This document shows positions 8,323 to 29,067 of a stretch of 35,999 bases of DNA, piece by piece. The notes below the pieces were generated by a model, which worked only from the letters and a program-made list of their open reading frames with translations, was not told the origin of the DNA and did no database searches. Origin of the DNA: Lentisphaerota bacterium (lineage in GTDB: Bacteria > Verrucomicrobiota > Lentisphaeria > Victivallales > SZUA-371); assembly GCA_003246475.1 (NCBI GenBank), contig QKAL01000230.1:1-35999 (forward strand). Direction: 5' to 3'. How positions within the stretch are numbered: the stretch's first letter is position 1; each line of letters opens with the position of its first letter. Both the position numbers and the translations under genes were made by a program.

Positions 8323-8357
8323 CCGAACCTTCCTTTCCTTGTGATTTACTGAAAAAT

Positions 8358-8385
8358 ACTATAATGTCCGGTTCAGGATAATCAA
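8358..8385 (-). promoter_or_regulatory. Probable sigma-70 promoter of the DUF4404-Tim44/TerB unit
   Basis: On the minus strand TTGATT (8385-8380) and TATAGT (8363-8358) are separated by 16 bp, with the AGGAAAGGAAGG ribosome site and ATG of the 108-residue gene downstream. The rest of the short gap between this promoter and the end of the GH32 gene at 8421 shows no clear terminator. Confidence 0.5.
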
Positions 8386-8420
8386 GACGCGTGCGAAAAA
8401 GAGTATGAACAACCTTAAAA

Positions 8421-9848
8421 TTATAAATTCAGCGGAAAAATCAGTAGCGATTGTAAGACGGGATGTGCATCCGCCGCCGTAATTTTAAAATGATAATCCT
8501 GTTCCGGAGGGAATTGCCAGCACGTTGTCAACGCAATTCGATTATCCAGATATAATTCTACGACGGAGCAATCGACAAACAAACGGAAAGAAAATTCTTC
8601 CGTCATATGGTCTGTTAGTTTAAAAGAAACGTTACCGCAGGAAACGTTTTTTGAAATCAGATCAACCATCGCGGAGTAAAAAAGCGTTTCTTCTCCGGCG
8701 GCAGTTTGCAGTGCAAGTTCCAGCCATGGTACGCCATGGCAGATAATGTGTCCCGATACTTCAAAAACCCGACCGGCACTGAGTTCCTGTATATATGTCT
8801 TTCGCAACGAGATGAATGGAGGGAATTTCATTTCGCTTTGTCGAAGCAGCTTAAGTTCATCAGCGGGCTCCAGCTGCAACGTATTATCCTGTGCCATCGA
8901 TAGAACACGGGGTAGAGAAAGACACCCGCTCCAATCGGTGTTCCCTTCACAGAAGCCGTGATTCCAGCCCAGTATAATCCACCTGCCGTCTGGCGTCTTT
9001 AACAGGTTGGAGGCGTAGAAGTTGTAGCCGTCGATGATACCGTGGTCTTCAGGGATGAATTTTAAAGCCTCCGCATCAAAATGTCCGATAAAATATTCCG
9101 TACAAATGCTCGTCTTGTTTGAAAGCAGTAATATATGCCGTTCGCCGAGCCGGATCAAATTTGGGCATTCGAGATGGTGGCACTTTTCTCTGCTGCCTGG
9201 ATATTCAAAAACCACACCGCGATTTTGCCACTGACGCAACTCGCTATTATCCGCCTCATAGATTACTACAACCGGGTGATCCGGCTTTCCGTTCGGACCC
9301 CGTCGGCTGGCATTGGTAACCATGAAATGGCGATCGCCGTCCTCAAAATAGAAGGGGTCACAATAAATAATAAGCCCTTCGGCCTGCGACGTATTATCAT
9401 TAAAAGAGGCATATGGATCTTCCTGATTCCAGAAAATCAGGTCGGAACTACCCTCTACTCCCCGTAGTTCGGCTCCACCGTAAAAGATGATCGGAACATT
9501 TTGTGAATTTATGACACAGCACCCGGAACAACAATTTTCCTCTCCTGCCTCTGGACGCGGAATCAACGCTACCGGCAGGTGTTCCCAGTGTACCAGATCC
9601 CTGCTGCGTGCGTGACCCCAGTGCATGTTTGCCCAATGTGCGGCATATGGATTATGCTGGTAAAAAATATGATAGTATCCTTCATGATAAATAAGGCCGT
9701 TGGGATCTCCCATCCAGTTGCCGGGACTATGGAAATGAATGGTTGGTCGCCGATGGTCGAATGCCGCCGTTGAAGCCGCCGCCCATGCGGCGGCAGTCGG
9801 TTGGCGAACAGTTTTCGGTAGCGAGGCAATATCTTGCGGGATAAGCAT
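8421..9848 (-). CDS. Glycoside hydrolase family 32 (beta-fructosidase/sucrase type)
   Basis: Retaining beta-fructosidase acting on sucrose, sucrose-phosphate, levan or inulin-type fructans. The five-bladed propeller starts at FHSPGNWMGDPNG, with nucleophile D48. The transition-state-stabilising Asp is D164 in YCDPFYF, where the family normally has RDP, so Arg is replaced by Cys. The acid/base Glu is E227 in HHLECPNLI. A C-terminal beta-sandwich with LFVDCSVVELYLDN (about residues 415-430) is the usual GH32C domain. There is no signal peptide, so the enzyme is probably cytoplasmic, although the gene before it encodes an exported protein. The ATG directly follows the TAG of that gene (TAGATG), indicating coupled translation. 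It is the last gene of cassette A, whose LacI regulator probably senses the sugar. Confidence 0.92.
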   Translation of the reverse strand: MLIPQDIASLPKTVRQPTAAAWAAASTAAFDHRRPTIHFHSPGNWMGDPNGLIYHEGYYHIFYQHNPYAAHWANMHWGHARSRDLVHWEHLPVALIPRPEAGEENCCSGCCVINSQNVPIIFYGGAELRGVEGSSDLIFWNQEDPYASFNDNTSQAEGLIIYCDPFYFEDGDRHFMVTNASRRGPNGKPDHPVVVIYEADNSELRQWQNRGVVFEYPGSREKCHHLECPNLIRLGERHILLLSNKTSICTEYFIGHFDAEALKFIPEDHGIIDGYNFYASNLLKTPDGRWIILGWNHGFCEGNTDWSGCLSLPRVLSMAQDNTLQLEPADELKLLRQSEMKFPPFISLRKTYIQELSAGRVFEVSGHIICHGVPWLELALQTAAGEETLFYSAMVDLISKNVSCGNVSFKLTDHMTEEFSFRLFVDCSVVELYLDNRIALTTCWQFPPEQDYHFKITAADAHPVLQSLLIFPLNL

Positions 9849-11270
9849 CTATCTTACCTTCGGAGTGGGTTTTTCCATAAAGATTACGGCATATGGCGGA
9901 ATCTTTTCAGGAGGAATAAACCCTTCGGGGCGGAATTTATATTTAACTTCCCTGCCGGTGTAATTGATGATAGTGAGAATTTTCTTGCCTTCGGCTATGC
10001 CCACTCGCCAGAGCAGGCCGGCTTTTTCTATCGCGTCATCCGGTTTGGATTGGGCGATGGCTGGATTGCGAAACAGCGTCAGCCTTCGCCGAACCTCTTC
10101 GAACAACGGCTTGATCGACTTCCAGGTGGCAGCTGATTCCGGATCAGTCAACAGGTGCCAGCCGGGAGTTTCTGGCGTTGCGGTGGAATAGTAGAATATT
10201 CCATCGGCGCCCAGCATCAATGCCATAAAGGTCTGGCAACGCATTTGCTGGGGAGACGGCAGATACATGTCGTCCTTGATCTTATAGAGTTGCAGAACTA
10301 CCCAGTTCGGCACGGCATTTCCCGTCTGGTTACGCATTTCACGGATAAAGTGGGAAATTCTTCCGGCATCGGAATATACTTTGCCGAAGGTATAGGGATC
10401 GGACATCAAAATATCACGGCAGCCGGCGTACGAACCGAAGGCTACCGGACGGGAATGATTCATAACGATCGGCCTGTCGTTACATATAACCTTGCGATCT
10501 TCGTAGTCTTTACGCAGCTTTTCCGGCGTGTGATTGGCCTTATCCGGGTTAATCTCCGGCTCATCCGGACCGACCCAAGCGATGACGTTCGGAAACTTTT
10601 TGCCGATCTCACGATATAAAGAAGGTTCCGCCGAACATACCGCCAGCATATTCAGACGGTTGGCCAGCTCCATAATTTTTTCACATTTTGCGGCGTAAAA
10701 TTTTGGATAAGGTACCACCACCAGATTGAATCCGGTATCCGCCAGCAACGGCAGATCCTTAAGGGATTGTTCGGCGCTTTGCAATTCTATTATCTTCCCG
10801 TCCCGTTCATTTGGCCACGGCAGATATATACCGAGGGGAAATATTTCTTTGCCTTTTACCACTGGAAGTCGGTTATGGAAGCGGACCGGAGATTCTGGGC
10901 GATGTAATGTCAATGTTCCCGCCGCCACAGTCTTTGCGCTGTCGATTCTTGAAATATCCCACTGGATCAGGACATCTTCTTTTGAATCATCGGGAAGTGA
11001 TATTGTTTCAAGATTTTTTCCCTGGTGAAGTACGGATTTTTCCTTCATAATTTCGGCTCCGGAGAGATCGGAAACGGTACATTCAAGTCTCATATTCTTG
11101 TTATATTCTTGGGGAATTGTACATTCTAGGATCGCGGGTAAACCGGGGTACACATGGTCAGAGAATAACCGGCAATGGATTCTCGAGTCCGCTTCTTCCT
11201 CGCCAGCCAGAATGGAGGCGTTCGCTCCTGTAAAAATTATCAAAAAGAGTAGTAACCATTGTCTAATCAT
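9849..11270 (-). CDS. Secreted glycosidase-like protein with (beta/alpha)8-type core
   Basis: The first 22 residues are a clear signal peptide (hydrophobic LLLFLIIFTGANASILAG). Residues 28-125 look like a beta-sandwich. Residues 140-400 alternate strands and helices as in a TIM barrel: FPLGIYLPWP, FNLVVVPYP, NMLAVCSAEPS, NVIAWVGPDEPEI, DILMSDPYTFG, NWVVLQLY, DGIFYYSTATPETPG. The W-x-G-P-D-E-P element (D236, E237) occupies the place of a clan-A acid/base residue. The C-terminal 60 residues form a small beta domain. I cannot place it in a numbered GH family; an endo- or exo-glycosidase, or a barrel that only binds glycan, are the options. The start has AAGGA nine bases upstream. It lies between the pilin-like gene and the GH32 gene in cassette A. 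Confidence 0.7.
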   Translation of the reverse strand: MIRQWLLLFLIIFTGANASILAGEEEADSRIHCRLFSDHVYPGLPAILECTIPQEYNKNMRLECTVSDLSGAEIMKEKSVLHQGKNLETISLPDDSKEDVLIQWDISRIDSAKTVAAGTLTLHRPESPVRFHNRLPVVKGKEIFPLGIYLPWPNERDGKIIELQSAEQSLKDLPLLADTGFNLVVVPYPKFYAAKCEKIMELANRLNMLAVCSAEPSLYREIGKKFPNVIAWVGPDEPEINPDKANHTPEKLRKDYEDRKVICNDRPIVMNHSRPVAFGSYAGCRDILMSDPYTFGKVYSDAGRISHFIREMRNQTGNAVPNWVVLQLYKIKDDMYLPSPQQMRCQTFMALMLGADGIFYYSTATPETPGWHLLTDPESAATWKSIKPLFEEVRRRLTLFRNPAIAQSKPDDAIEKAGLLWRVGIAEGKKILTIINYTGREVKYKFRPEGFIPPEKIPPYAVIFMEKPTPKVR

Positions 11271-11334: not shown

Positions 11335-12000
11335 TTAATTGGTGATATCGTCGTAACGGTGCCACTGTTTTCCATCATCGGTAAAGAACTGCTTTGAGGC
11401 AACGTGACCGTCAAGATGCAGGAAATTGTTTCTTCCATGATGGCGAATCCCGTCGGCTCCGGCATTGCTGTCCGAAGCCAGAATATAACCGCCCGGATCG
11501 CTTCCGCGGTTTCTCGGTCTGGTTGCTCCGTTCAAAAGATATTGTCCCGCGGACCCGGAGCTGCCGCGTCCCAGCCCTCCGAAGTAGTTGTAAGACATGA
11601 TGTTGCCGCTGTCGTTAAGATCCCATTTGCGGCCCTTAGCCACATTGGGGTCGGATGGACAGCTGACCAGATCCTCTTTGGTGAGATAGTTTTCCAGAAA
11701 CAGATAAATCAAGCCATGGCTGAGGTTATTGTTGTGTGCGTAATAACATATCCAGTTAAGACCGTATGGGAAGGGGTCGTTAGAAAGGGATAATGGTGGA
11801 AGGTAGTCGTTATAGGAATCTGCATACATGGTAATGGTCAAGCCGAGTTGCTTCAGGTTTGAGGTGCATTTTATTGCCCGGGCTCGTTCCTTGGCTTTGT
11901 TCAATGCAGGCAGCAGCATTGCGGCCAGAATTGCGATGATCGCAATAACAACCAAGAGTTCTATTAGAGTAAATAATTGGAATTTGTTTTTACTTTTCAT
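11335..12000 (-). CDS. Pilin-like (pseudopilin) protein with H-x9-DG C-terminal motif
   Basis: A 221-residue protein with an N-terminal type IV prepilin-like segment: short basic leader, then [20 protein letters not shown], including the conserved Glu at +5, and the long helix continuing [13 protein letters not shown]. Position -1 to the expected cleavage site is Leu instead of Gly. The globular part contains paired Cys ([15 protein letters not shown]), a glycine-rich loop, and at the end [12 protein letters not shown], the H-x9-DG motif of the large Planctomycetes/Lentisphaerae pilin-like family. Its role is unknown; surface or periplasmic exposure is likely. The start at 12000 is fixed by AGGAGA six bases upstream; the in-frame ATG at 12027 has no such site. 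It lies 44 bp after the LacI gene. Confidence 0.88.
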
Positions 12001-12006
12001 CTTACG

Positions 12007-12012
12007 TCTCCT
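12007..12012 (-). promoter_or_regulatory. Ribosome binding site deciding the pilin-like start
   Basis: AGGAGA on the minus strand, six bases before ATG 12000. It makes the short leader form (MKSKNKFQL before FTLIELL) the probable product rather than the nine-residue longer form. Confidence 0.7.
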
Positions 12013-12044
12013 GCTTTTATAGTTCATTTAAAAACCTCCAAAAA

Positions 12045-13462: not shown

Positions 13463-15094
13463 TTATGGTTTTTTGCTGGAATCGTCCGCATTTTTAGTTT
13501 TGGCATCATCCTCTTTCGCCAATAACTTCATCTGCTCGAGCTGGAATTTCAATGCCTTTGCCATGGCCGGGTTGAATTTCTCCAGACAGGTCTTGGTGAC
13601 ACTTTCCTTGATTTTGTTGTAGCTGGCCAAGCCGGTCCGTCCTTTGACGTCGGCATTCTCAGTCATATATCGATTATAGACAAAACGGGCAAGCTTTTCA
13701 TGTGACAAGGCGGCGTCAATGTCGCCAAACGCCAGGAAATTGCAACAACGGTAGAGTAGACCGCTGATAATGTCGTTAGCCTGTTTGGGGGTGGCGTCTC
13801 TAACATCTTCCGCCCATTCTTTAAGTACGAACAGATCCAGTGGCGCCCTGTATTCCGGCTTTCCTGGCTCATCCTTGCGGAGAATATCATAGTATTTTTG
13901 GGCTTTGGAGTAGTTGCCGAAATTGTAAAGGACTACGACCGCATCTTTCATGAAGTTGAGCAGGGCAGAACGGAAACTGGAACTCTTGTTGTCTTCATAG
14001 GCTTTAAGATATGTTTCGCGGACTACATCCACCACATTCAGATTGGGAACCGTGATAACAGTTGCGTAATCCTTGTCATCAACCATCAACAGACGTCCTC
14101 CCATAAACGCGTCCTTCAGCGCTTGGGTAATCATACGCTCGCAATTGATGTCCTTGTGCGATGGTGTCATTTCCAGCCCCTTGGTCGCCCAGTAAATAGC
14201 CTGTGATTCGGGCAGACGCCAATCTAGGTCGCCATATTTCTTGTTAATGCTGAAAATCAGACGAGGATCAAGCTTATATACGTCAACCAGCCAGTTGACC
14301 CGGAGATAAGTTACCAATTTACTGATGATTTCCGGGTGGTTGAATTTCGATAGAAAATCCTCAGGGAGCTTCCCATTTTCGCGGAAATAGGTTTCAAGCT
14401 TGCTGAAAGAAGCATAACCGGTTTCGTCGAGGGCCTTTTGCAGAATGGCGCGGCTTTCATTTGAGAGGCTTTTCTTAAAGTCGTTGGCGTTTTGTGGCGT
14501 GGCCGCCCATTGTTCCCAGTCAGGGGCCGGTCCGCCGAAGACTTTCATCAATGCAATCGCCATCTGATTTTTGTAGTAAAGGTTGGCATCATCCATGATG
14601 TTACCGATCTTATGCTGATAGATCCAGCCGAGTTCCTTGTAAAGCAGAGGATCTTCGGGGTTATACTGAATCGCTTCGTCACGAATAAGTTCAATCCCGC
14701 GCGATATCCAGCGCCAGCGGTCTTCCGCCGAAGAACAGGTAACCGAAATATTGTATGCCATATTCCAAGCAAGATAGGCGGTTGCTCCGGTGAATCGCGG
14801 TTGAAGTTTTGTGATCCATGAAGCCAGCTGTACCATTTCAAAATAGTTGCCTTCATCCTGGAGAGATGTGGTGCGCAGCCACAGGAGGTCGGCCAGCAGA
14901 CCGCGGAAACTGCCCAGCGCCACTGTTGTGAAGGTTACGATTGGTGGCGCATTTTTGATTTCACCAGTGGCCCGGAGATGGTTTTCCTTGATCAGCAAAT
15001 TGAGCCGGCTGGATGATATTCCCACGCCGACCAACAGCATGGCGGTGGCGGCAATGGCCAGTAAATACATGACAAATGATCTAAAACGGTTCAT
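13463..15094 (-). CDS. Membrane-anchored helical-repeat (TPR-like) protein, unknown function
   Basis: A 543-residue protein with one N-terminal membrane segment (residues 8-27, LAIAATAMLLVGVG) and the remainder outside or in the periplasm. The body is almost all helical and contains TPR-like pairs, for example AIQYNPEDPLLYKELGWIYQ (about residues 140-160), NYSKAQKYYDILRKDEPGKPEY and DIDAALSHEKLARFVYNRY. The C-terminal tail is Lys/Asp-rich. The start codon overlaps the permease stop by four bases (ATGA), so the protein is made together with the ABC-2 permease. It may be an accessory or substrate-contacting subunit of that transporter. I do not recognise a named family. Confidence 0.75.
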   Translation of the reverse strand: MNRFRSFVMYLLAIAATAMLLVGVGISSSRLNLLIKENHLRATGEIKNAPPIVTFTTVALGSFRGLLADLLWLRTTSLQDEGNYFEMVQLASWITKLQPRFTGATAYLAWNMAYNISVTCSSAEDRWRWISRGIELIRDEAIQYNPEDPLLYKELGWIYQHKIGNIMDDANLYYKNQMAIALMKVFGGPAPDWEQWAATPQNANDFKKSLSNESRAILQKALDETGYASFSKLETYFRENGKLPEDFLSKFNHPEIISKLVTYLRVNWLVDVYKLDPRLIFSINKKYGDLDWRLPESQAIYWATKGLEMTPSHKDINCERMITQALKDAFMGGRLLMVDDKDYATVITVPNLNVVDVVRETYLKAYEDNKSSSFRSALLNFMKDAVVVLYNFGNYSKAQKYYDILRKDEPGKPEYRAPLDLFVLKEWAEDVRDATPKQANDIISGLLYRCCNFLAFGDIDAALSHEKLARFVYNRYMTENADVKGRTGLASYNKIKESVTKTCLEKFNPAMAKALKFQLEQMKLLAKEDDAKTKNADDSSKKP

Positions 15095-16515
15095 TTTCTA
15101 ATCACCAATCCCATTTCTCTGCGTTTGTAAAGCAGGATTCCCAGCAAAAATAACGGTAATGCCTTCAGGACAAAATAGCTGAAAAACAATTTCCCCATAT
15201 ATGAAAACTCGATCAGTTCCCCATTTGAAATAAAATTTGATACTTCAAAATTCTGCATGGGAATAATAATGATCAACAGCACTTTGCTGACCCAGTATCC
15301 GATAAAATTAGTAATCCCTTCAGAGGCGGATTCCGCGCCGCTGCCAACCAGATATTGAGCGAATATGCCGAATAGCAGATACGAAAACACCAGAAATACT
15401 GCGGTCGGCATAGACATGACGCAGGCGACGGCACAGGCCAACCCTGCGAGAATGATAAGCTGAAGAGCGGATACCGCCAGCGCGCGAAGATAATTTCCTA
15501 AAAACCCGCCAACTTTCGCCAGCAACTTCGGCCCGTCAGACATCTGGATGAAAAGCGGTTTGTTTTCTGGATCAAAACTTATAAACGCGACCTCAACACT
15601 ATTGTCACTCAAAACCGATCCCGGCCAAAGCGTTATTTCATGGAAAACCCCGGACATGTATTGTTGCGGGTAATCGTTGATTGGGAAGTAATACGCCTTC
15701 TTTTCCTTTTTTCCATCTACCACTTTGTCCGTTTCGATTTCACGTTTGACCAGCCAAACTCCATAGGTAATACGCTGATCCTTGCTGGAAATTTTATTGA
15801 CATAAAAACGGAAACGCAGGAAAAGCGGCTGATCATTGTTGGGAATGCCAGTAAACCGCCATGGACGCATATTGCCTTCTCCAGGTCGGATTTCGGATAG
15901 GAGCGCCACCACTCGTTTGCGCATCTCGTCCAGGCCGGCGGCTTCATTGATGTCTACATTGATTACGGCTTTATTTTTACTTTCCTGCTGCAATTGCTCC
16001 ATGCGCTTCTGGAACAGGATCTTTGCCATCGCATTGATATCTGGGCGCTCCGGCCAGAAAACACGCCGCCCCACCATAACTTCCGACTCGATTTTAGCCT
16101 TTTGCTCTGGAGTGAAAGACTGGCGGGAAAATTGCCAGATGATAATCAGATAGATGGACATTCCTGCCAGAAAAAGGAGAATTAGATGGATTATCAGCAC
16201 TCCCAACCATTTCCCGATCCAGATCTTGATTCTTGAAACCGGTTTGGAAATGACCATATGCAGCTGATAACTTTCAATGTCGGAAGACAAAGAAAAGCAA
16301 CCCAGCCAGACCGTGGAAAGAGACAGGATGAAGGTTACGATCGCCAGACTGTATTTCAGCGATATCTGAATATAGCCGTATGCCGTTCCATCCCCAGAAA
16401 TCGTCATGGGGACAAAAATGACGCATATCAATAACATTGCCAGCAGCAATTGAAAGATATGAGACCGTATTGCTGCTTTTGTGGTGAGTTTTGTAATACT
16501 CCATAAAGATATCAT
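15091..16515 (-). CDS. ABC-2-type transporter permease with large external loop
   Basis: Membrane subunit of an ABC exporter, 474 residues. Hydrophobic segments lie near residues 20-37, 52-74, 107-129, 345-375, 380-400, 420-440 and 445-466. Between the third and fourth lies a hydrophilic region of about 200 residues (130-330) with alternating charged helix and beta segments (MRPWRFTGIPNNDQPLFLRF, YGVWLVKREIE). It is probably extracytoplasmic and is bigger than in standard ABC-2 permeases. The ATPase is encoded 24 bp upstream and the TPR-like protein overlaps its stop, so the three form a transporter cassette. The substrate is unknown; heme, lipid or peptide export and a gliding/NosY-like role are all possible. 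Confidence 0.82.
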   Translation of the reverse strand: MISLWSITKLTTKAAIRSHIFQLLLAMLLICVIFVPMTISGDGTAYGYIQISLKYSLAIVTFILSLSTVWLGCFSLSSDIESYQLHMVISKPVSRIKIWIGKWLGVLIIHLILLFLAGMSIYLIIIWQFSRQSFTPEQKAKIESEVMVGRRVFWPERPDINAMAKILFQKRMEQLQQESKNKAVINVDINEAAGLDEMRKRVVALLSEIRPGEGNMRPWRFTGIPNNDQPLFLRFRFYVNKISSKDQRITYGVWLVKREIETDKVVDGKKEKKAYYFPINDYPQQYMSGVFHEITLWPGSVLSDNSVEVAFISFDPENKPLFIQMSDGPKLLAKVGGFLGNYLRALAVSALQLIILAGLACAVACVMSMPTAVFLVFSYLLFGIFAQYLVGSGAESASEGITNFIGYWVSKVLLIIIIPMQNFEVSNFISNGELIEFSYMGKLFFSYFVLKALPLFLLGILLYKRREMGLVIRK

Positions 16516-16539
16516 CAGCGTGTTCCGATCTGTTACCGG

Positions 16540-17691
16540 TTAAAGTAAATCTTTCAATTTTGCATTGGCTTCGGAAAGGTCTTCCCGGGACTCGGATTGA
16601 GGCGCGGGAGTCTCTTCTTCCTCTTCCGCCAGCCCGGCAAGAACAGTTGCCTTGACCTCTTCTTTTCTGATTTCGGCAGCGGTTGGCTGTTGCGGAGCCG
16701 CTACCGGAACGGTTTCTTCCACCAGAAGTTCCTTCAGGACAGCTTTTGTATCTTCTTTCGATACTCCTTCTGTAAGATAATCGGCAACATGGCCTCCACT
16801 GACGACTCCGGCGGTTTCTATACTGTCGGCTTTGGCTTTGTTGATGACATCCAGGAAGAAATTTTCCAGAGACATTCGCGGATTATCGATAGAAAAGGAT
16901 TCGTCCTTAAGTTCTTCTCGCAAAATTTTAAGTACCCGCTCCAAGGCATCAGCCTTCAATAATGGCGTGGTAATGCGACTTTCTTCCGGAATAGTCAACA
17001 GCTCGTCAAGAGTTCCGGTGGCGCGTACTTTCCCACCATACAGGATGATGACGCGATCGCAGATGTCTTCCACATCGCTGAGCAGATGGCTGGTAACTAA
17101 AACCGTCTTGCCGCGCTTTTTCAACAGCAGGATCAAGTCCTTGACTTCACGACAGCCTAATGGGTCCAGTCCCGAAGTTGGTTCGTCTAGAATCAGCAAT
17201 GATGGATCGTTGATCATGGCTTGCGCCAGGCCGATACGCCGCTGCATTCCTTTTGAGAACTCACCCACGGTTCGGCGGCGCGCATGAGTCATGCCGACCA
17301 TGTCCAGCAGCTGATCGATACGGCGTTTACGCTCTGGACCAGACATGTTGAACAGCGAGGCGAAGAAATCAAGCGTTTCTTCCGCGGTCAGATATTTATA
17401 AAGATATGACTCTTCGGGCAGATAACCGATGCGGGTTTTGGTCTCGACGTCGCGCGGTGACTGCCCGAAAATCGTTAGGTTGCCTGCCGTGGGATAAAGC
17501 AACCCCAGCAGCATTTTGACGGTGGTTGATTTTCCGGATCCATTGGGACCGAGTAGCCCGACGACTTCTCCCGGAAAAACCTGGAAGTCGATATCGTTGA
17601 CTGCTCTCGCCTTCGGGCGGTTCCAGAAATCCCGGAACTCTTTGCTCAATCCTACCGCATTGATGATTGGAATCTTGTTGGCTTCTGCCAT
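16540..17691 (-). CDS. ABC transporter ATP-binding protein with long C-terminal extension
   Basis: Nucleotide-binding subunit of the ABC-2-type exporter encoded just downstream. With GTG 17697 as residue 1: Walker A GPNGSGKST at 50-58, Q-loop region YLPEESYLY near 92-100, ABC signature FSKGMQRR at 147-154, Walker B LLILDEP at 167-173 and the H-loop in VTSHLLSDVED near 203. After about residue 235 there are 150 further residues: a small mixed domain, then an Ala/Glu/Pro-rich disordered tail (AEEEEETPAPQSESRED). This extension is longer than in ordinary exporters of this type. I use ATG 17691, which has GGTG five bases upstream; GTG 17697 would add two residues. It lies 28 bp after the P-type ATPase gene. 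Confidence 0.9.
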   Translation of the reverse strand: MAEANKIPIINAVGLSKEFRDFWNRPKARAVNDIDFQVFPGEVVGLLGPNGSGKSTTVKMLLGLLYPTAGNLTIFGQSPRDVETKTRIGYLPEESYLYKYLTAEETLDFFASLFNMSGPERKRRIDQLLDMVGMTHARRRTVGEFSKGMQRRIGLAQAMINDPSLLILDEPTSGLDPLGCREVKDLILLLKKRGKTVLVTSHLLSDVEDICDRVIILYGGKVRATGTLDELLTIPEESRITTPLLKADALERVLKILREELKDESFSIDNPRMSLENFFLDVINKAKADSIETAGVVSGGHVADYLTEGVSKEDTKAVLKELLVEETVPVAAPQQPTAAEIRKEEVKATVLAGLAEEEEETPAPQSESREDLSEANAKLKDLL

Positions 17692-17719
17692 CGTCACACC
17701 ATTTGTTATTTAAAATTAA

Positions 17720-19795
17720 TCAATCCGTATTAGCTTCCGCCGCCTGGCGCCGGTTATCTTCCAGCGTCAGCTCTTCTCCCGTCCGCACCAGTCTGGCGCT
17801 GTTGAAAATAATCAATACCGTACTGAGAGAATGTAATATTGCCGCTGCGATAGGCGACATCCAGCCGAAAACGGAAAGGATCATTCCTCCGAAGACGAAC
17901 AACATGCCCAAGAACAGGTTCTGGCTGATGACGATACGGGATTTCCGCGAGAGAAGCACCAGCATTGGAATGCGACGCAGGTCGTTGGTCATCAGGGCAA
18001 TGGAGGCGCTGTTGACCGCGATGTCGCTGCCGATGGCTCCCATGGCGATACCCAGATCGCCCGCCGCCAGCGCCGGAGCGTCGTTGACGCCGTCGCCGAC
18101 AACCGCGACCATGGAATGACCTTTAACCTTTTCCACGTAAGCGACCTTGCCTTCCGGCAGACATTCGCTGCGGTATTCATCGATCTTAAGCTGCTGTGCG
18201 ACGGTTTCAGCCACTGATTCGCGGTCCCCGGTAACCATCGCGCAATGTTCAACGCCGAGTACTTTCAAGGAATTGACCATTTCCGTGGCTTCATTGCGGA
18301 TCTTGTCCTTGAAGCCGATCCAGCCGATGGCGGATTTGCCTTTGGCAACGTAGATGACGCTCATGCCGAAACTTTCGCTTTCCTTTTTGCCGGTATGAAC
18401 GTTCGATACATCAACATTCATTGAACTGAGCCAATTAAGACGGCCGAGGAAATATTTTTCACCGTTAATTACCGCACTGACGCCTTTACCGTGTTCTTCC
18501 TGGAAGTCATGGGCTTCCTTGAGTTTCAGCCCGGCTTCAACGGCAAGCCGCTGCAATGCTTTGGCGGTCGGGTGATTGGAGTGTACTTCCGCCGAAGCCG
18601 CACAGAGCAGCAGCTCCGCCGGTTCAATACCGTTTACCGGAGCCAGCCGAGCCACGGAAAGTATCCCGTCGGTCAGGGTTCCGGTTTTGTCGAACACGAA
18701 AGTACGGATCTTCGAGGCGAGTTCCAGATGTGCGACATTTTTAATGAAAATACCCAGACGTGCCGCTGCGGCGACTGCCGCCACCACCGCGGTCGGAGTG
18801 GCCAGGACGATGGCGCAGGGACAGGCAATGACCATCAGAGTGATAACGCGCTTCATGTCTCCTTCGGAAATCCACCAGGTTAAAGCGGCCAGCATCAACA
18901 CCATCGGAGTATAAAAGCCCGCGTAACGGTCAATAATGCGTACTATCGGTGTGCGGCTGCTTTCCGCGGCGATAATCATTTCCTTGACCTTGCCCAGCGT
19001 GGTGTCTTCCCCGAGCTTGGTGACGCGAATCTCTACGCTGCCGGTCAGATTCTGGGTTCCGGCGAAAACTTCGCTGCCGATCTCTTTATCAACCGGGAGA
19101 GATTCCCCGGTGATGGAGGCCTGATTGACGGTAGTCTCGCCTTTTGCGATTACGCCGTCTACCGGAAAGTTATCGCCGGGGCGGACGCGGATAATGTCGC
19201 CGACTGCCAATTCGAGCACGTCAACTTCCAGTTCATTGCCCTCAATAATCTTGTTGGCGGTGTGAGGCGTCAATTTGACCAGCTCCTCAATCGAACGCTG
19301 TGCGCCGCTGGCGGTTCGCGATTCGATAATGATGGTGATCAACAGGAAAAAGGCAATGATGCCGGCGGTCTGGAAATCGCTACCGGCAAAGGCGGAAAGG
19401 ATGGCCAGCGCCACCAGTTCATTCATGTATACCTTGCCGCGGATCAGGTCTTTGATTGCCGTAAAGATGATCGGCAGTGCCAGAATGACTCCGCCCAAAA
19501 TGGCACTCAAATTCGCCGCAAACACCTGCGCGGGAAACAGCCATTGCAGCAGGAAGGAGTTGGCGACAAAAAAACCACCGATCAAGGCACTGGAAAGCCG
19601 CCCCATTGAGCGTTCGTGTCCTGTTCCTTCGGATATATTACCGCATACGGGGCAGGTTACCCCTTTGGCGTGAACGTGTTTCTGTGCCTGCTCATGGTTG
19701 TGTTCATGGGCATGGTCATGGGCATGGTCATGACCGCAGGAGCAATTTCCGTGTTCGGCATGCTCATGTTCCGCATTGGCGATTGCTTCAGCCAT
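17720..19795 (-). CDS. P1B-type heavy-metal-transporting ATPase with His-rich N-terminus
   Basis: Metal cation pump of 691 residues. The first 42 residues hold twelve histidines plus a CSC, and C48/C51 form a CPVCG element; this replaces the usual HMA domain. Eight membrane helices are expected. Actuator loop TGES is at 229-232, the intramembrane metal site CPC at 325-327, phosphorylation site DKTGT at 369-373 (D369), the P1B-specific HP pair at 408-409 and GDGVND at 567-572. The last helices read LHSLSTVLIIFNSARL, without the DG of classical Zn/Cd pumps, so the metal is uncertain; the His tail favours Zn, Ni, Co or Cu. Its ribosome site AAAGGTGA overlaps the stop of the HflK-like gene, showing coupling with it. 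Confidence 0.93.
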   Translation of the reverse strand: MAEAIANAEHEHAEHGNCSCGHDHAHDHAHEHNHEQAQKHVHAKGVTCPVCGNISEGTGHERSMGRLSSALIGGFFVANSFLLQWLFPAQVFAANLSAILGGVILALPIIFTAIKDLIRGKVYMNELVALAILSAFAGSDFQTAGIIAFFLLITIIIESRTASGAQRSIEELVKLTPHTANKIIEGNELEVDVLELAVGDIIRVRPGDNFPVDGVIAKGETTVNQASITGESLPVDKEIGSEVFAGTQNLTGSVEIRVTKLGEDTTLGKVKEMIIAAESSRTPIVRIIDRYAGFYTPMVLMLAALTWWISEGDMKRVITLMVIACPCAIVLATPTAVVAAVAAAARLGIFIKNVAHLELASKIRTFVFDKTGTLTDGILSVARLAPVNGIEPAELLLCAASAEVHSNHPTAKALQRLAVEAGLKLKEAHDFQEEHGKGVSAVINGEKYFLGRLNWLSSMNVDVSNVHTGKKESESFGMSVIYVAKGKSAIGWIGFKDKIRNEATEMVNSLKVLGVEHCAMVTGDRESVAETVAQQLKIDEYRSECLPEGKVAYVEKVKGHSMVAVVGDGVNDAPALAAGDLGIAMGAIGSDIAVNSASIALMTNDLRRIPMLVLLSRKSRIVISQNLFLGMLFVFGGMILSVFGWMSPIAAAILHSLSTVLIIFNSARLVRTGEELTLEDNRRQAAEANTD

Positions 19796-19808
19796 ATCTA
19801 ATCACCTT

Positions 19809-20951
19809 TTACTTTTGGTTGTTAGTCGTTTGCTGGACTTTTTTCGGCTCGGGATTGATTTTCAGGCGAACTTCCTGATTGCCGCGGGCCGATTTATATA
19901 GAATGAATTTTTCCTTGGTCGAAGCCAGGACATCTGCCAGGGTATAGTTATACAGGGCAACCAGGACAGTGTCGGGGCTTTTGAGATATTCTTCATTGAT
20001 CTTGTTGAAATAAAAGGCTTCCGATTTGATTTCCGCCACGATTCTGGTTTTGTAATTCTGGGCTTCCGCCAGAATCATAACTTTGTCGGAGGAGGCGGCG
20101 TTTTCCTGCTGGATCTGATAGGTCAACGCTTCACTGATCATTCTTTCCCGTTCCTGGCGGGCAATGCTTACTTCGTCGAATGCCGCTTTGGTTTTTTGCG
20201 GAGGTACCGCACCGCCAAGAGTGACAGACTCGATTTCAACACCGATATCCAGTTTTGTGATGGCCTCTAAGAATCCATTCTGAACGTCACTGATATAGCT
20301 CTGGTTGTTGTAGAGCGCCTCTTCGACCTTGTGTCTGGCGGTAACCTTTATTACAACGTTGCGGAGTTCGTTCTGCATCAGGACCAGCGGTCCGCCGTCG
20401 TAAGACTCTTCACCGTTCACAGTTTTTGCCGTTTCTTTGTCCGCAAACGGGGCTGTTGCCGCGATGACGTTCTCGTAATATTTCTGCGGGTTGCTGATCT
20501 TATAGACCACGTTCCAACTGGTATGGATTATATTGGCGTCGGCGGAGATCAGATAGTTATCGCGACCCGGTTCAAGAGGTCCTCCCTGAGGCGGAGGGGC
20601 GCCTTCCATCATCGGCATGGTCTGGGCCGTAAAAGAGATGGAGAAACTCTGCTGGTTCATCGGGATTTCGATAAACTCGTCTATCGGACGCGGGAACGCC
20701 CAGCTCCACCCCTTGCTGATAACAGATTCAACTTTGCCAAAACGTATCATAAGCATTGCACTCTGCGGTTTAACAATCTTAAATCCGCCAATAGCGAAAG
20801 AGTACACCAGCATTCCGATAATCAGCACGGCCATAATCAGAAACGCAACCTGCAGGCTGCGGACAAAGGCTTTCAGGCCCAAGTCATAACGGCCGTAATT
20901 ATGTTCCTGCCCATGAACGTGATGTTCGTGTTCATTATCCATGTTATTCAT
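19809..20951 (-). CDS. HflK-like SPFH/band-7 protein with short His-rich N-terminus
   Basis: Stomatin/prohibitin-fold membrane protein; relatives HflK/HflC assemble into large cages around the FtsH protease and modulate it. Residues 1-20 carry a His cluster (H8, H10, H11, H13, H17), then one membrane anchor at 34-55 and the SPFH domain from about 58 (KPQSAMLMIRFGKVESVISKGWSWAFPRPIDE) to 260. Residues 260-325 form a charged helix (EVSIARQERERMISEALTYQ) as in HflK. Length of 380 is close to HflK. Most HflK proteins have a Gly/Gln-rich head; here it is His/Glu-rich, like the pump encoded 13 bp downstream. It is the third of three consecutive SPFH genes. It could be a pump-associated scaffold rather than a general FtsH modulator. 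Confidence 0.85.
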   Translation of the reverse strand: MNNMDNEHEHHVHGQEHNYGRYDLGLKAFVRSLQVAFLIMAVLIIGMLVYSFAIGGFKIVKPQSAMLMIRFGKVESVISKGWSWAFPRPIDEFIEIPMNQQSFSISFTAQTMPMMEGAPPPQGGPLEPGRDNYLISADANIIHTSWNVVYKISNPQKYYENVIAATAPFADKETAKTVNGEESYDGGPLVLMQNELRNVVIKVTARHKVEEALYNNQSYISDVQNGFLEAITKLDIGVEIESVTLGGAVPPQKTKAAFDEVSIARQERERMISEALTYQIQQENAASSDKVMILAEAQNYKTRIVAEIKSEAFYFNKINEEYLKSPDTVLVALYNYTLADVLASTKEKFILYKSARGNQEVRLKINPEPKKVQQTTNNQK

Positions 20952-20971
20952 AATTCCGTCACCGTTTCGGT

Positions 20972-21907
20972 TTACTTTTTGCTTCCGTTATCGATTTTTT
21001 CCGCGCCGGCCTTCAAAATATCAAACGGGGCGGAATCGGTATCCAGGATCAGCGTTGTCTTCTGACCCATGATCTTCTTCATGGAATCCAGTTTGCGCAA
21101 GAACGCCGCCAGTTGCGGGTTCTTGTTGAATTCGCTGTAATATTTGGCTGCCATGGCATCGCCATCAGCGCGGATGGTCTTGGCTTCGGCTTCGGCGTCG
21201 GTCAGGATCTTGGTTTTTTCCGCATCAGCTTTGCTGCGGATATCTTTTGCCCGGCTTTCGCCTTCGGCGCGATACTGGCTGGAAATGGTCTGGCGCTCGG
21301 CGATCATGCGGTTAAATACCGAGGAGGTTGTGTTTGCCGGGATGCCGATATTGTTGATGCCGACACTGACCACTTCCACGCCGTACTGACTACGGGTTTT
21401 CAGGTTCAGTTCATCACAGATCATTTTTTCTATTTCCGAAAGCTTCATCTTGTTCGCGTCGGTGTTAATCAGCTGGTCGAAGCGGTATTTACCGATAACC
21501 AGCGATTTTTCGCTCCGCATCCAGTCACTGAGAGATTCTTCGGCGCGGGGAATGGTCATCCAGGTGGTATAAAAGAGTACGGGGTCAACGATCTTGTAAG
21601 CGATATATATGCCGATCAGAACGTTCTGTCCGTCTTTAGTGAGGGTCTCTTCGATCTTACCGCCTTTGCCTTCAAAACAGCGGATGCGTTTGTCGAACTT
21701 GTAGATGCTCTGGATCGGGTATGGCCAGCGGAAGTTCAAACCGGAATCGGCTGTACCGGAGATTTTCCCGAGAGTGGTGATAACAGCATATTCGGTGTTC
21801 TTTACTTGAAATGAGATGATCGTAATGATGAAGACCACCGCAACCATGATTCCGAGTAAAATGGTGACCCAGTGTTTGGGCGCCCGTTGTTCTTGTTTCG
21901 CCGACAT
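20972..21907 (-). CDS. HflC-like SPFH/band-7 protein
   Basis: 311-residue stomatin-like protein with an N-terminal membrane segment at residues 13-33 and an SPFH domain covering about 33-230 (YAVITTLGKISGTADSGLNFRWPYPIQSIYKFDKR; GVEVVSVGINNIGIPANTTSSVFNRM). The following helix has the HflC-type AEGESRAKDIRSKADAEKTK pattern (about 225-255). Length and order agree with HflC, the partner of HflK in a hetero-oligomeric cage. It has AAGGAG before its ATG and sits between the large SPFH gene (54 bp gap) and the HflK-like gene (20 bp gap). No FtsH gene is in the window. HflC is the best guess, but in this setting the partner set may differ from E. coli. Confidence 0.88.
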   Translation of the reverse strand: MSAKQEQRAPKHWVTILLGIMVAVVFIITIISFQVKNTEYAVITTLGKISGTADSGLNFRWPYPIQSIYKFDKRIRCFEGKGGKIEETLTKDGQNVLIGIYIAYKIVDPVLFYTTWMTIPRAEESLSDWMRSEKSLVIGKYRFDQLINTDANKMKLSEIEKMICDELNLKTRSQYGVEVVSVGINNIGIPANTTSSVFNRMIAERQTISSQYRAEGESRAKDIRSKADAEKTKILTDAEAEAKTIRADGDAMAAKYYSEFNKNPQLAAFLRKLDSMKKIMGQKTTLILDTDSAPFDILKAGAEKIDNGSKK

Positions 21908-21961
21908 CTACATTCTCCTTCTTTATTTATAAAGTATAATTTAAAATTACTGATTTAAGGT

Positions 21962-23884
21962 TTATTTGGTTACATTGCCGAGATCCGTATCCAGCAGATC
22001 AAGCCGCTCTTTCTCCTCCAGATTGATCTCGTAGATCTCATAGGGGATGGATTTGGAGAAGATGAATTTCCGGATGCTGTTGCAATCGCGTTCCAGGAAA
22101 TCGAGATAGGTTCGTAATTTGAAAATTTGCGGCATGGCGTTGTAAGAGAGAAGCTGTTTGCTGAAACGTTCAGCTTCGGCGGCAGAAACGCGGATCATAT
22201 TGTCGCTGTATGCCTTGGCGATCAGAGTAATACGGTCGGCCTGGGATTTGGCCGCAGGGATAGTCTTGATCTCATAGGCTTCGGCTTCGAGGATCTTGGT
22301 TTCCTTTTCTTCCATGGCGTTGATGACGTCATGGAACGAAGGCGCAACTTTTTCTATCTGAGGATGAACGTCGTGAATGTTCACGGCAACAATGGTGATG
22401 CCGAGATTATGGGCGTCACAGGACTCCTGAAGCTGTTTTTTCAGTGCGGCGGTTGTCTCCCCGCGTCCTTCGGACATGACCTTAAACAGATCGACGCTGG
22501 CAAAATATTTCGTGACGATCTGTTCCCCGATTTTCTGAACCATATTGGATGGATCGTAGTTGTCGAAGATATAGGCTTTGACATGATCTTTGTTGATGGT
22601 GAACTGGATCGGAATACTTGCGCCCAGAAGCGAGAGGGAACCCGAGGCGGAATCTTCGCCCTGAGTGTTGCGAACCGCAACCAGAAACTCTTTTTCCTGA
22701 GCATAATGTTTTTTGGTCCACAGGACGATATCGGGCTGAAGAGCCACACCGTCTTTCATTTCCAGCGAAGCTCCGACTCTGACCTCATGGATCTCGGTAC
22801 AGGATATCTTCTGAATGACCTCCATGGGATATGGCCACTTGTAATATACTCCCGCTTCGAGAGGGGCTTCATTTATCAGCTTGCCGAAGCGCAGCCGGAA
22901 GCCGACTTCATTGTGATTGACCTCGACAATGCCGGTGAAAAGCCAGAACAACAGTGCCCACAACAGCAGGATGGGAACGAGGGCTTTCTCAAAAAAGCCG
23001 TAAAGCGCGGTCTTCGAGACTTTAAAACCGAACTGATAATCAAGTGCGTCGGCGATATTGCGCATGACTCCGCCGGGTTCGGTAAAGAGCGCCAGAATTC
23101 GGCTTTCATAAACCGGGCGGACCTCTTCAATAGTACGTGGGCGGTAAAATTCGGTAACCAAACTGATTAACAGCTCTACATCCAGCAGAACAAAAAACCA
23201 GAAAATGATTTTTGCGAATGTTGCATCATACACCAGGCGGTGTTCGGTCTTGCCATAGCGGTACAACAAAGATGAAGCCGTTGCCAGCAGCATGGCAATA
23301 AACGCGGCGATCAGCCAGGCACCTACCGGGCGCAGCCAGCGGAATGTTTTGGCGCGGGACTGGCCGATACAGAATGCTCCTGAAAAGGCGCTTATAAACA
23401 TTAAAACCACGCAGACAAAGGCCACATGCAGTGTGTTTTTGGGTTCCAATGGCACCAGGCGACCGCTCCATTCACGCGCAAAAAGCACCAACATCGCCGT
23501 AATGACCACGATACTGATGATGGACATCACATACGGGGCGAAACGTTCGTAATTCTGGAACGCTCTTCCGGAGGTGAAACGGACGTCTTCTTCGGTATTG
23601 AACGCGCTGTCCTTACGCTCTTTGAGGAGTTGTTTTTCAATCTCTTCATAGCTGGCGGCGGCGGAAAGTTTGCCGTAGATCATGGCGGCGACGGCAAAGA
23701 GCGTAGCGATAATAAAGGGGATTATACCGATGGCATAGGCGTCAAGTCCGGCCCATTTGGACACCAGCCCGGTAAAAAAGATCAGCAAGGTGATAATTGC
23801 CGCGCCGATGCCGACGAAAAGTGAAACATTGAAAAGGAGCTTGGAACCTTCGATATTTTCTTTAATCAGACTTTCATTTGCCAT
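21962..23884 (-). CDS. Multi-spanning SPFH/HflK-like protein
   Basis: A 640-residue protein with two parts. The first 325 residues contain about seven hydrophobic segments (near 17-40, 47-70, 114-136, 147-170, 183-205, 223-245 and 305-325), with a charged linker near 75-110. The rest is an SPFH domain (VEVNHNEVGFRLRFGKLINEAPLEAGVYYKWPYP, from about 326) and an HflK-type helical region (ILEAEAYEIKTIPAAKSQADRI), ending in a short tail. Ordinary HflK has one membrane segment, so this polytopic N-terminal half is an unusual fusion. It is the first gene of the seven-gene operon. The start ATG is preceded by GAAAGAAG. It probably forms a hetero-oligomer with the two following SPFH proteins. Confidence 0.85.
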   Translation of the reverse strand: MANESLIKENIEGSKLLFNVSLFVGIGAAIITLLIFFTGLVSKWAGLDAYAIGIIPFIIATLFAVAAMIYGKLSAAASYEEIEKQLLKERKDSAFNTEEDVRFTSGRAFQNYERFAPYVMSIISIVVITAMLVLFAREWSGRLVPLEPKNTLHVAFVCVVLMFISAFSGAFCIGQSRAKTFRWLRPVGAWLIAAFIAMLLATASSLLYRYGKTEHRLVYDATFAKIIFWFFVLLDVELLISLVTEFYRPRTIEEVRPVYESRILALFTEPGGVMRNIADALDYQFGFKVSKTALYGFFEKALVPILLLWALLFWLFTGIVEVNHNEVGFRLRFGKLINEAPLEAGVYYKWPYPMEVIQKISCTEIHEVRVGASLEMKDGVALQPDIVLWTKKHYAQEKEFLVAVRNTQGEDSASGSLSLLGASIPIQFTINKDHVKAYIFDNYDPSNMVQKIGEQIVTKYFASVDLFKVMSEGRGETTAALKKQLQESCDAHNLGITIVAVNIHDVHPQIEKVAPSFHDVINAMEEKETKILEAEAYEIKTIPAAKSQADRITLIAKAYSDNMIRVSAAEAERFSKQLLSYNAMPQIFKLRTYLDFLERDCNSIRKFIFSKSIPYEIYEINLEEKERLDLLDTDLGNVTK

Positions 23885-24063: not shown

Positions 24064-24192
24064 GTCAAATGAGATGATGAAACAAATCACTGTGACGTGC
24101 ATAGTATGACAGCGTTATTTTGAAAATGTTCCAGGTATTTGTAAATATGTTGGCTTTCTTTCTTAAATATTAAAGAGATTAATGCAAGAATG

Positions 24193-24210
24193 CGTGAATA
24201 ATTATGCACG
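24193..24210. promoter_or_regulatory. 18-bp near-perfect palindrome, candidate operator
   Basis: CGTGAATAATTATGCACG: only one symmetric pair mismatches (A against G). It lies 50 bp upstream of the -35 box of the LacI promoter and 127 bp upstream of its start codon. The position suits an activator or a distal repressor site. Confidence 0.5.
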
Positions 24211-24259
24211 TTCAATTCATGTTTATTTGCATAAAGATACATTTTATTCATTTTATGTA

Positions 24260-24288
24260 TTGCATTTATTCATGACACCGTTTATAAT
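24260..24288 (+). promoter_or_regulatory. Sigma-70 promoter of cassette B
   Basis: TTGCAT (24260-24265), a 17-bp spacer and a perfect TATAAT (24283-24288), 31 bp before the LacI start codon. The right arm of an ATACAT/ATGTAT inverted repeat touches the -35 box. Confidence 0.65.
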
Positions 24289-24319
24289 TAATGTTATAGA
24301 CAAATCAAACGAGGAATTT

Positions 24320-25333
24320 ATGGATAGAGAAAAAGTCAGCTGCAGCAATATTACGATGACCGATGTTGCCGAGCGGGCCGGAGTGTCACAAGCGACGGTA
24401 TCCCGGGTATTGAGCAATCATCCCCGGATTAACAATTACACCCGGCAAACGGTGATGCATGCCATACAGGAGCTGGGGTATCGGCATGTATCTCTGAACG
24501 GCGAGAACGGACGTGTTTCTGCTCCGACGACGCTTGGACTATTGATTTGTCCGCTTCCCGAACAAAAAAATCCCTTGGGCCTGGACTTTTTCAACGAGAT
24601 AATTGCCGGTATCCAGGAGGTAGCGCTGGATCATCATCTGGAGATTGTGCTTGCTACTTTGCCGGCGGGGGCGGACAAGGTGATGTTGGCCAATGTGACG
24701 CAGGAGCGCATGGCCGGTCTTATTTTGCTGGGCTATCCCTCCGAGCAGCTTACCACCCGTCTGCGTGAGGAAAAAATTAAATATGTGGTTGTGAGCGGAG
24801 ATGACAACATCGATGACCGAAGCGATATGATTACGGTCAATAATATCGAGGGCAGCATCAATGCCTGCCGTTATCTTCTGTCCCGCGGATGCCGGCGTCT
24901 GGGATTTATCGTGTCGCATCAGGACTCGTTCCGGATGACGGGGTTTCAGGTGGAGCTTTTAAGACATGACCTCTCGATTGCCGAAAAGGATGTCAGCGTT
25001 GTGGAGTCCACTGACATATCCGCTTTTATCGAGGAAATCCATTGCTGGATCAATCGGGGAGATTTGCCGGATGCTATCGTTATCAGTTTTTATGATGCGG
25101 CCATGGCGGTTAAAACGTTGCTGACTTTAAATGGGATCAAAGTTCCTGAGAACGTGGTGTTGTTTTCATTTAAACATCGGTTGAGCGACGACCAGATTCC
25201 CTGTATCCATCTGTCCCCCTCCATGCTGGGAAAAAAGGCGGCGCGGCGTATTATGGAGATGCTGCGGGATCCCAGCGATCCGCCTCACCGTATTGTTGTG
25301 CCGATGCAGGCCATTTTTAATCTTACAAATTAA
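24320..25333 (+). CDS. LacI family transcriptional regulator (cassette B)
   Basis: Sugar-responsive regulator of 337 residues. The helix-turn-helix ITMTDVAERAGVSQATVSRVL is at residues 11-31, followed by the hinge (LGYRHVSLN) and a PBP-like effector domain (TLGLLICPLPEQ; DMITVNNIEGSINACRYLLSRGCRRLGFIVS; CIHLSPSMLGKKAARRIMEML). The start at 24320 has GAGGA at 24311-24315 and lies just downstream of a promoter. An in-frame ATG 138 bp earlier would place the promoter and palindrome inside the gene and add 46 residues unlike any LacI N-terminus. The pilin-like gene follows after 35 bp without a terminator, so regulator, pilin-like protein and glycosidase should share one mRNA. Confidence 0.93.
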   Translation: MDREKVSCSNITMTDVAERAGVSQATVSRVLSNHPRINNYTRQTVMHAIQELGYRHVSLNGENGRVSAPTTLGLLICPLPEQKNPLGLDFFNEIIAGIQEVALDHHLEIVLATLPAGADKVMLANVTQERMAGLILLGYPSEQLTTRLREEKIKYVVVSGDDNIDDRSDMITVNNIEGSINACRYLLSRGCRRLGFIVSHQDSFRMTGFQVELLRHDLSIAEKDVSVVESTDISAFIEEIHCWINRGDLPDAIVISFYDAAMAVKTLLTLNGIKVPENVVLFSFKHRLSDDQIPCIHLSPSMLGKKAARRIMEMLRDPSDPPHRIVVPMQAIFNLTN

Positions 25334-25368
25334 CGAATCCCGGAAAATAATAAAGGAGCTTAAAAAAA

Positions 25369-26151
25369 ATGAGAGAAAAGAGCGGAACAGGTCAAAAGAG
25401 TTTTACACTTATCGAGTTGTTGGTGGTGATTGCGATCATTGCGATTTTGGCATCCATGTTGCTGCCGGCGTTGTCGAAAGCCAGGGATAAGGCGCATGAA
25501 ACACAATGTACCTCGAACCTGAAGAGTCTCGGTACCGCTACAATTATATTTGCAGATGCGCAGGATGGTTATTTGCCCCTGACCAATGGCGGCGGTTACG
25601 CAGCTAACTGGGCGTTTCACCTGGTCAATGCGGGATTGCTGAAGAATTCCGAGGACCCGTCCAACGGAAGTTATAATGGTAGCTGGATGTATTTCAATAA
25701 TCAGCTCTCGGTCTGCAAAGGGATTAAACGTAAAATGGTTGGCGACAACAGCGATCTTTTGAGCTGTCCTTCCATTCGTGGCACTGAAATGGCCGGAACC
25801 GGGATAAATTATTACATCAATGCCTATGGTTCTCCCCGCTACAGCATGGGAACCGGACCCAGTGATGATGGCAAAATAAAAGGTAATCCACTGGTCAAGA
25901 TCAAACGTCCGAGCGTACTGGTTCTGGCATATGACGGAGCCGCATTCAGCGGCGGTTCGATTACGATGGATGTCGGACCGATCTGGAACGCCTGCTGGAA
26001 TGATTATAACAATATGGGTGGAGCGCTGTCCCGGCGGCATAACAAAATGTCCAACACTCTGCGAGCAGACGGTCATGTGCAGAAAATTGCTTTGCAGGAG
26101 GTCGATAACTCCTCGTTCCCGGCGGTCGAATGGCATGTGCAGCAATTATAA
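25369..26151 (+). CDS. Pilin-like (pseudopilin) protein with H-x9-DG C-terminal motif
   Basis: A 260-residue paralogue of the cassette A pilin-like protein. After a 12-residue leader comes [20 protein letters not shown] with Glu at +5, then [22 protein letters not shown]. The residue before the Phe is Ser, not the Gly expected by prepilin peptidase. The globular part has paired Cys ([15 protein letters not shown]) and ends with [16 protein letters not shown], the H-x9-DG motif. AAAGGAG lies ten bases before the ATG. The gene sits between a LacI regulator and a large secreted glycosidase, exactly as in cassette A. A surface fibre, a glycan-capture protein or a secretion pseudopilin are possible roles; none is proven for this family. 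Confidence 0.9.
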
Positions 26152-26166
26152 AATTTAAGGAGCGAA

Positions 26167-28890: not shown

Positions 28891-28901
28891 CCTCAAAACT
28901 T

Positions 28902-28938
28902 AAAATAACCGTCATTTTAACAAATGACGGTTATTTTT
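28902..28938 (+). terminator. Strong intrinsic terminator of cassette B
   Basis: A perfect 16-bp stem (AAAATAACCGTCATTT with AAATGACGGTTATTTT) around a 4-nt TAAC loop; the run of T at the 3' side of the stem completes the signal. Its near-symmetry means it could also work on the other strand. Confidence 0.88.
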
Positions 28939-29058
28939 ATGACATGATTTTTGTGAAATAGCGTTATTTATTTTTCACCACAAACCGATTAATAAGAAGG
29001 GAACGTTTAAACTAAAAGAACTATTTACAGTTAATGGCGTGAAAAAATTGAATCCATG

Positions 29059-29067
29059 AAAGGAGGT
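29059..29067 (+). promoter_or_regulatory. Near-perfect Shine-Dalgarno of the 1567-residue protein
   Basis: AAAGGAGGT with four bases to ATG 29072; the strongest ribosome site in the window, suggesting high translation. No convincing promoter was found between the preceding terminator and this site. Confidence 0.75.

Follow-up and report, generated by a model that had tools for sequence, protein, structure and literature searches.

A conserved operon of three HflK/HflC-type SPFH proteins, a P1B-type ATPase and an ABC-2/TPR transporter in Lentisphaeria and relatives

Closest described systems and the seven-gene operon

To begin with, the closest described counterpart of the locus analysed here is the Pseudomonas aeruginosa cluster PA2434-2439, in which HmtA, a zinc/copper importer (PA2435), is encoded together with HflK- and HflC-type genes, and whose transcripts increased 5.6- to 14.4-fold in a znuA mutant (PMC4542158). 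Moreover, the proteins of this cluster tended upward under zinc depletion (PMC11761036), and import by HmtA needs confirmation according to a review (PMC10393844). The SPFH trio PaFlo5-7 was studied with no mention of HmtA or of a P-type ATPase (PMC13086221); as PaFlo5-7 is a three-gene SPFH operon, it would correspond to PA2437-2439. Pseudomonas knackmussii is likewise reported to have this SPFH trio (PMC13086221). No paper bringing 'HmtA' and 'SPFH' together was found in the literature searched. For Lentisphaerae or Verrucomicrobia, this literature yielded nothing specific about an association between SPFH genes and P-type ATPases, and a 2009 survey of SPFH proteins named no ATPase partner. 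These systems were compared with a seven-gene operon in a stretch of 35,999 nucleotides (the window), which lies on contig C127 (QKAL01000230.1) of a 3.2-Mb, 78%-complete assembly of a Victivallales-like member of Lentisphaeria. The reading proposed, considered to lie slightly on the probable side, is that an HflK/C-like SPFH cage encloses an HmtA-type metal-uptake ATPase and, in Lentisphaeria and their relatives, is joined to an ABC-2/TPR transporter, some ABC-linked lineages having later given up metal transport.

Seven open reading frames (ORFs) on the minus strand make up the operon, in the order SPFH1, HflC-like protein, HflK-like protein, P1B-type ATPase, ABC-2-type ATPase (ABCA), ABC-2-type permease (ABCP) and membrane-anchored TPR-like protein (TPR protein). 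They are separated by 54, 20, 13, 28 (22 with the GTG start of ABCA) and 24 bp, followed by a 4-bp overlap, and LacI-type regulators flank the unit on either side. The layout, gaps and broad identities given in the initial annotation were borne out by the ORFs and the domain calls. In particular, the P1B gene and the three SPFH genes of HflK/HflC type stand side by side on one strand, as in an HmtA-type cassette, and this core content equals that of PA2434-PA2439, with its three HflK/HflC-type SPFH genes and atypical P1B ATPase (PMC4542158, PMC13086221), whereas no ABC-2/TPR genes are reported there. Three SPFH genes with a P1B pump are thus not without precedent, being found in P. aeruginosa (PMC4542158), and the four-gene core is a broader description of an arrangement of which Pseudomonas had given a first glimpse. 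The form with seven genes, which adds the ABC-2/TPR extension, was not described in the papers searched and represents a novel variation on this arrangement. The operon may be divided into two modules, namely SPFH1-HflC-HflK-P1B (module 1) and the ABC ATPase, the ABC-2 permease and the presumably periplasmic TPR protein (module 2).

The Band_7 domain was detected in SPFH1 (positions 21962–23884, 640 aa; E 2e-14), in the HflC-like protein (20972–21907, 311 aa; E 2e-28) and in the HflK-like protein (19809–20951, 380 aa; E 5e-20), the last two having one transmembrane (TM) helix each. A PF01145 profile search of the window's own genome missed SPFH1, in which hmmscan finds the domain. SPFH1 and the HflK-like protein scored 114 and 130 bits against TIGR01933 (hflK), both below the cut-off, and the HflC-like protein scored 156 bits against TIGR01932 (hflC), above the cut-off of 134. 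According to hydropathy and AlphaFold2 (32 orthologues, mean pLDDT 77.7, pTM 0.45), seven TM helices in SPFH1 precede an SPFH domain resembling that of HflK, which is followed by a long coiled-coil helix, and its best PDB matches in Foldseek were HflK/C cages. This architecture is unusual, since SPFH proteins are stated to have a single membrane segment (PMC12407830). Seven TM helices and an N-terminus inside would place the SPFH domain of SPFH1 in the periplasm, as in HflK. A CDF (ZnT/YiiP) identity of its N-terminus was rejected, as the Foldseek matches were weak (E 0.016) and there was no Pfam Cation_efflux match, and the similarity was taken as a helix-bundle resemblance.

The three HflK/C-type proteins, one of them with six extra TM helices, would form a cage on the periplasmic face of the membrane, and this cage would surround the HmtA-type P1B ATPase. 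By analogy, such caging has precedents in HflK/C-FtsH and in the stomatin dome enclosing AQP1 or UT-B, a solved case of an SPFH cage around a transporter (PMC12407830), although the latter is eukaryotic, holds channels rather than an ATPase and has a cytosolic SPFH domain, while caging in the present system is inferred.

The P1B-type ATPase (17720–19795, 691 aa) matched the heavy-metal P-type ATPase profile TIGR01525 with 546 bits and had intact DKTGT and HP motifs, a TGE motif, a CPC motif in TM4 (residue 325) and the TM8 motif HSLSTVLIIFNSARL (residue 655), and no HMA domain was found in it. It therefore belongs to the P1B type, sharing the DKTGT, HP and TGE motifs and the P1B topology with the CopA, ZntA and CoaT pumps, along with CPC in most cassette members. 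However, it did not fall into the subclasses P1B-1 (CopA), P1B-2 (ZntA) or P1B-4 (CoaT), as its TM8 motif differs and it stands in a separate clade. Cassette pumps carry H-x-x-S/G-T/S...NSARL in TM8, as opposed to MxSS and DxGxT, read from the CopA- and ZntA-type sequences compared, and HEGxT, the TM8 motif of subclass P1B-4 (PMC8880997), and they have repeatedly lost CPC.

Distribution and phylogeny of the four-gene core

Survey loci were fetched by similarity to the TPR protein and SPFH1, and 99 of them, all from the window's GTDB phylum, had enough sequence to be assessed. The full order from SPFH1 to the TPR protein was uninterrupted in 52 of these, including most Victivallales loci. The P1B gene stood directly after HflK in 92 loci, with a median gap of 3 bp, and within the SPFH cluster in 97; it was present but overlooked for ORF-calling reasons in L052, L131 and L138, and lay just upstream in L151 and L160. 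Only L150 (G086) and L172 (G198) had SPFH1-HflC-HflK with no P1B gene at the cluster, and in L172 a 922-aa protein of a different family (L172:9999-12767) follows HflK in its place. Furthermore, the core extends to genomes related at the phylum level only (L152-L162), and two cassettes per genome were found in G046, G195, G212 and G236.

Outside the phylum, Pseudomonadota were sampled via plasmid records, where the order SPFH1-HflC-HflK-P1B was found in Paraburkholderia sprentiae (L213), Rhizobium (L212, L218), Klebsiella aerogenes (L216) and Burkholderia ubonensis (L217), with transposase genes near the cassette in L216 and L217. The Paraburkholderia pump and SPFH1, used separately as tblastn queries, returned the identical ten plasmid records, and the Rhizobium and Paraburkholderia cassette pumps clustered with that of the window. 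A chance or local gene cluster is ruled out by this synteny, the order recurring in dozens of species. The initial annotation had proposed a neighbourhood search, and genes that are neighbours in this genome only are excluded by their occurrence in Lentisphaeria, in other classes of the GTDB phylum and, as the four-gene core, on Pseudomonadota plasmids. The gene order is ancient and deeply conserved, and module 1 can be described as a four-gene cassette that is both old and transferable.

In trees that were built quickly and carry only SH-aLRT support values, with E. coli K-12 genes as references, the P1B ATPases of all sampled cassettes grouped in a single clade (support 100) and were separated from pumps of the CopA, ZntA and SPC types, also from those encoded in the same genomes. 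Cassette SPFH1, HflC and HflK likewise formed one clade each (support 96, 92 and 97, respectively), distinct from canonical HflK and HflC and not clustering with the E. coli proteins; the cassette HflC clade was sister to canonical HflC. This separation bears on an FtsH quality-control role, in which the cassette SPFH proteins would be a local HflK/HflC regulating FtsH, with the pump and ABC genes as clients or co-regulated genes. Such a role would agree with the HflC-like protein exceeding the HflC equivalog cut-off, with the single FtsH of the window genome and with the near-complete Victivallales genomes G006 and G150, in each of which only four Band_7 proteins were found, three of them encoded by the cassette. 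It is nevertheless judged unlikely, as the cassette clades stand apart from the canonical ones, the P1B gene accompanies the SPFH genes across phyla and on plasmids while ftsH was not seen in the cluster, and G055, which has no cassette, carries a canonical HflK-HflC pair. The fold and the cage around a membrane ATPase would be shared with HflK/HflC-FtsH, but here there are three SPFH genes instead of two, one of them encoding a seven-TM protein, and the partner gene encodes a P-type ATPase instead of FtsH. Given the Band_7 counts of G006 and G150, the cassette SPFH proteins may have a second role with FtsH.

The ABC-2/TPR module and variation of the pump

ABCA (16540–17697) has 385 aa when read from its GTG start, with a likely ATG start at 17691, and matched ABC_tran (E 2e-34). 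ABCP (15091–16515, 474 aa) scored 21.8 bits against ABC2_membrane_2 (PF12679), below the cut-off of 27.2, and hydropathy indicated that its groups of TM helices are separated by a loop of some 220 residues. The TPR protein (13463–15094, 543 aa) gave a weak TPR_17 match (E 0.008) and was modelled with one TM helix and a TPR-like helical superhelix (AlphaFold2 pLDDT 84), for which Foldseek returned TPR superhelices; its basic N-terminus suggests a periplasmic body. The first 180 residues of this protein were exceptionally conserved, with long runs of invariant columns, exceeding the TPR body, which suggests a conserved contact surface. Module 2 shares with GldAF-like ABC-2 exporters an ATPase and an ABC-2-like permease with weak GldF similarity, and differs from them in its linked TPR protein and SPFH-P1B cassette and in an ABCP below the Pfam cut-off. 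It would represent an ABC transport complex tied to the SPFH cage in Lentisphaeria and relatives, and from its predicted periplasmic parts it might be guessed to move an envelope substrate.

The two modules are not always contiguous. The ABCA-ABCP-TPR block was detached from SPFH1-P1B in L055, L062 and L171, and ABCP-TPR lay elsewhere in the genome in Oligosphaera ethanolica (L120 and L113 on one 5.73-Mb contig), G079 and G114. In these three genomes, an ATPase of the ABCA family stayed in the SPFH-P1B operon despite the distant ABCP-TPR pair, which was taken to point to a functional link between the modules and would be compatible with physical coupling. ABCP-TPR pairs with no ABCA-family ATPase within the fetched flanks were also seen (L093, L094, L098, L100, L104, L106-L110, L112 and L113). 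Moreover, a second ABC-2-like permease family of about 315-380 aa (c6) was found in 14 loci, mostly directly upstream of SPFH1 (L131:4835-5893, L140:14130-15281, L154:14070-15014 and 11 more), and was absent from the window operon; module 2 of some relatives would include this additional permease.

Variable TM4 motifs were observed among the 107 pumps in which this position was readable, namely CPC (77), VPA (11), CPV (6), CPG (3), IPC (3), LPC (3), CPI (2), CPL (1) and MPC (1), the window pump being of the intact CPC/His type. The TM8 His was kept in all 76 CPC pumps with readable TM8 and lost in ten pumps (six Q and four Y, from three lineages), and all nine of the TM8-His-less pumps with readable TM4 had also lost the second Cys. 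In contrast, DKTGT and HP were present in 108 out of 108 pumps. ABCA was attached in all 23 pumps with second-Cys loss, compared to 57 out of 84 pumps that kept this Cys. However, these losses correspond to about five events on the tree, TM8 His loss being confined to three of the lineages concerned, and Lentisphaeria are over-represented, so that the association of ABC linkage with second-Cys loss is only suggestive. In the four genomes with two cassettes, c6 (not called in all), ABCA, ABCP and TPR accompanied the degenerate pump, and the cassette of the CPC pump had no more than ABCA. This repeated degeneration was not described in the papers searched. The P-type ATPase of some ABC-linked lineages, other than that of the window, has dropped its metal ligands and kept its ATPase motifs.

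A caged P-type ATPase acting as energiser would account for these variants: in some ABC-linked lineages no metal would be moved, and the pump, serving as a mechanical or regulatory subunit, would use its phosphorylation cycle to drive or gate either the ABC-2/TPR complex or the cage. The loss of the second TM4 Cys (VPA, CPV, CPG, CPI, CPL), joined in three lineages by that of the TM8 His, the invariant ATPase motifs, the attached ABCA and the placement of the ABC-TPR genes with the degenerate copy all point this way. Such a role is regarded as quite improbable, given that CPC and TM8 His persist in most pumps, including that of the window, that the association with ABC genes has the limit given above, and that an ion could be bound by other residues.

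Metal context, surroundings and implications

Under the caged-uptake reading, the ATPase in its basal form would most likely import zinc, or perhaps copper, as an essential transition metal under scarcity, with substrate and direction inferred by transfer from HmtA and from neighbouring genes. ZnuABC-type zinc-uptake genes adjoin the cassette in two distant loci: they lie upstream of it, along with a COG0523-type GTPase, in L213, and upstream of c6-SPFH1 in L131, from the window's GTDB phylum, where CobW_C, ZnuA, an ABC ATPase and an ABC-3 permease are encoded. In L151, genes for ZnuA and for an ABC ATPase adjoin P1B. A metal efflux or resistance operon, in which Zn or Cd would be exported by P1B and envelope damage from metal stress would be repaired by the SPFH and ABC genes, is very doubtful, as the CopA- and ZntA-like exporters encoded in the same genomes fall outside the cassette clade, the neighbouring genes are uptake genes, the HmtA cluster is induced by zinc depletion and metal ligands are lost in several lineages, even though most characterised P1B ATPases are exporters, the top NCBIfam scores were for heavy-metal and Cd-type exporters and the N-terminus of the window pump is His-rich.

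Several points weigh against uptake by a caged HmtA-type pump. The zinc-gene neighbours are limited to the three loci named, no match to a Zur-like box was found in the scan of the window, including upstream of the operon, and the presumed placement of HmtA in the cassette P1B clade draws on gene content, not on its sequence. Moreover, the loss of the second CPC Cys and of the TM8 His in ABC-linked lineages does not fit metal transport there, and the proposal as a whole draws on sequences, trees and models.

His-richness was claimed in the initial annotation, and it applies to the N-termini of the window pump and its HflK-like neighbour, but not as a conserved trait: at least six N-terminal His were found in 48 out of 102 orthologous pumps and at least five in 4 out of 102 HflK-like proteins, with a correlation of 0.16, so that His-rich tails were rejected as a conserved metal link between both. 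Similarly, 'metal pump' fails as a general label, because several ABC-linked lineages no longer have the Cys and His of the metal site. The proposed scaffold organising or protecting transporters is partly supported: that such a scaffold serves the pump is the preferred reading, and an SPFH dome around transporters has been solved for stomatin with AQP1/UT-B (PMC12407830); the SPFH-pump pairing is not without precedent, and the general label of the pump does not stand.

Regarding the surroundings, the flanks (3235-11270 and 24182-35173) encode a BrkB-family membrane protein, an FAD oxidase-like protein, a Tim44-domain protein, GH32, a CBM9-domain protein and LacI/GntR-type regulators, and no metal-related genes were evident among them. 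Two pseudopilin-like proteins (11335-12027, minus strand, and 25369-26151, plus strand) each adjoin a LacI-type regulator, a 1567-aa ORF on the plus strand (29072-33775) had no Pfam match, and one short palindrome lies in the spacer upstream of the operon. Promoter-like matches in the operon region (15) were at the level expected from shuffles (14.2), and therefore no internal promoter is indicated; this lack of signal is no evidence for a single transcript.

Overall, the HflK/C-like genes beside HmtA in Pseudomonas, once a scattered observation, are extended to a unit that is conserved across phyla and whose SPFH proteins form clades of their own. With this unit, it can be tested directly whether SPFH cages of bacteria also surround transporters other than FtsH. 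Furthermore, pumps that lack metal ligands and retain the ATPase core would be natural separation-of-function variants for the role of a P-type ATPase in such an assembly, and an undescribed ABC-2/TPR transporter of Lentisphaeria gains candidate partners.

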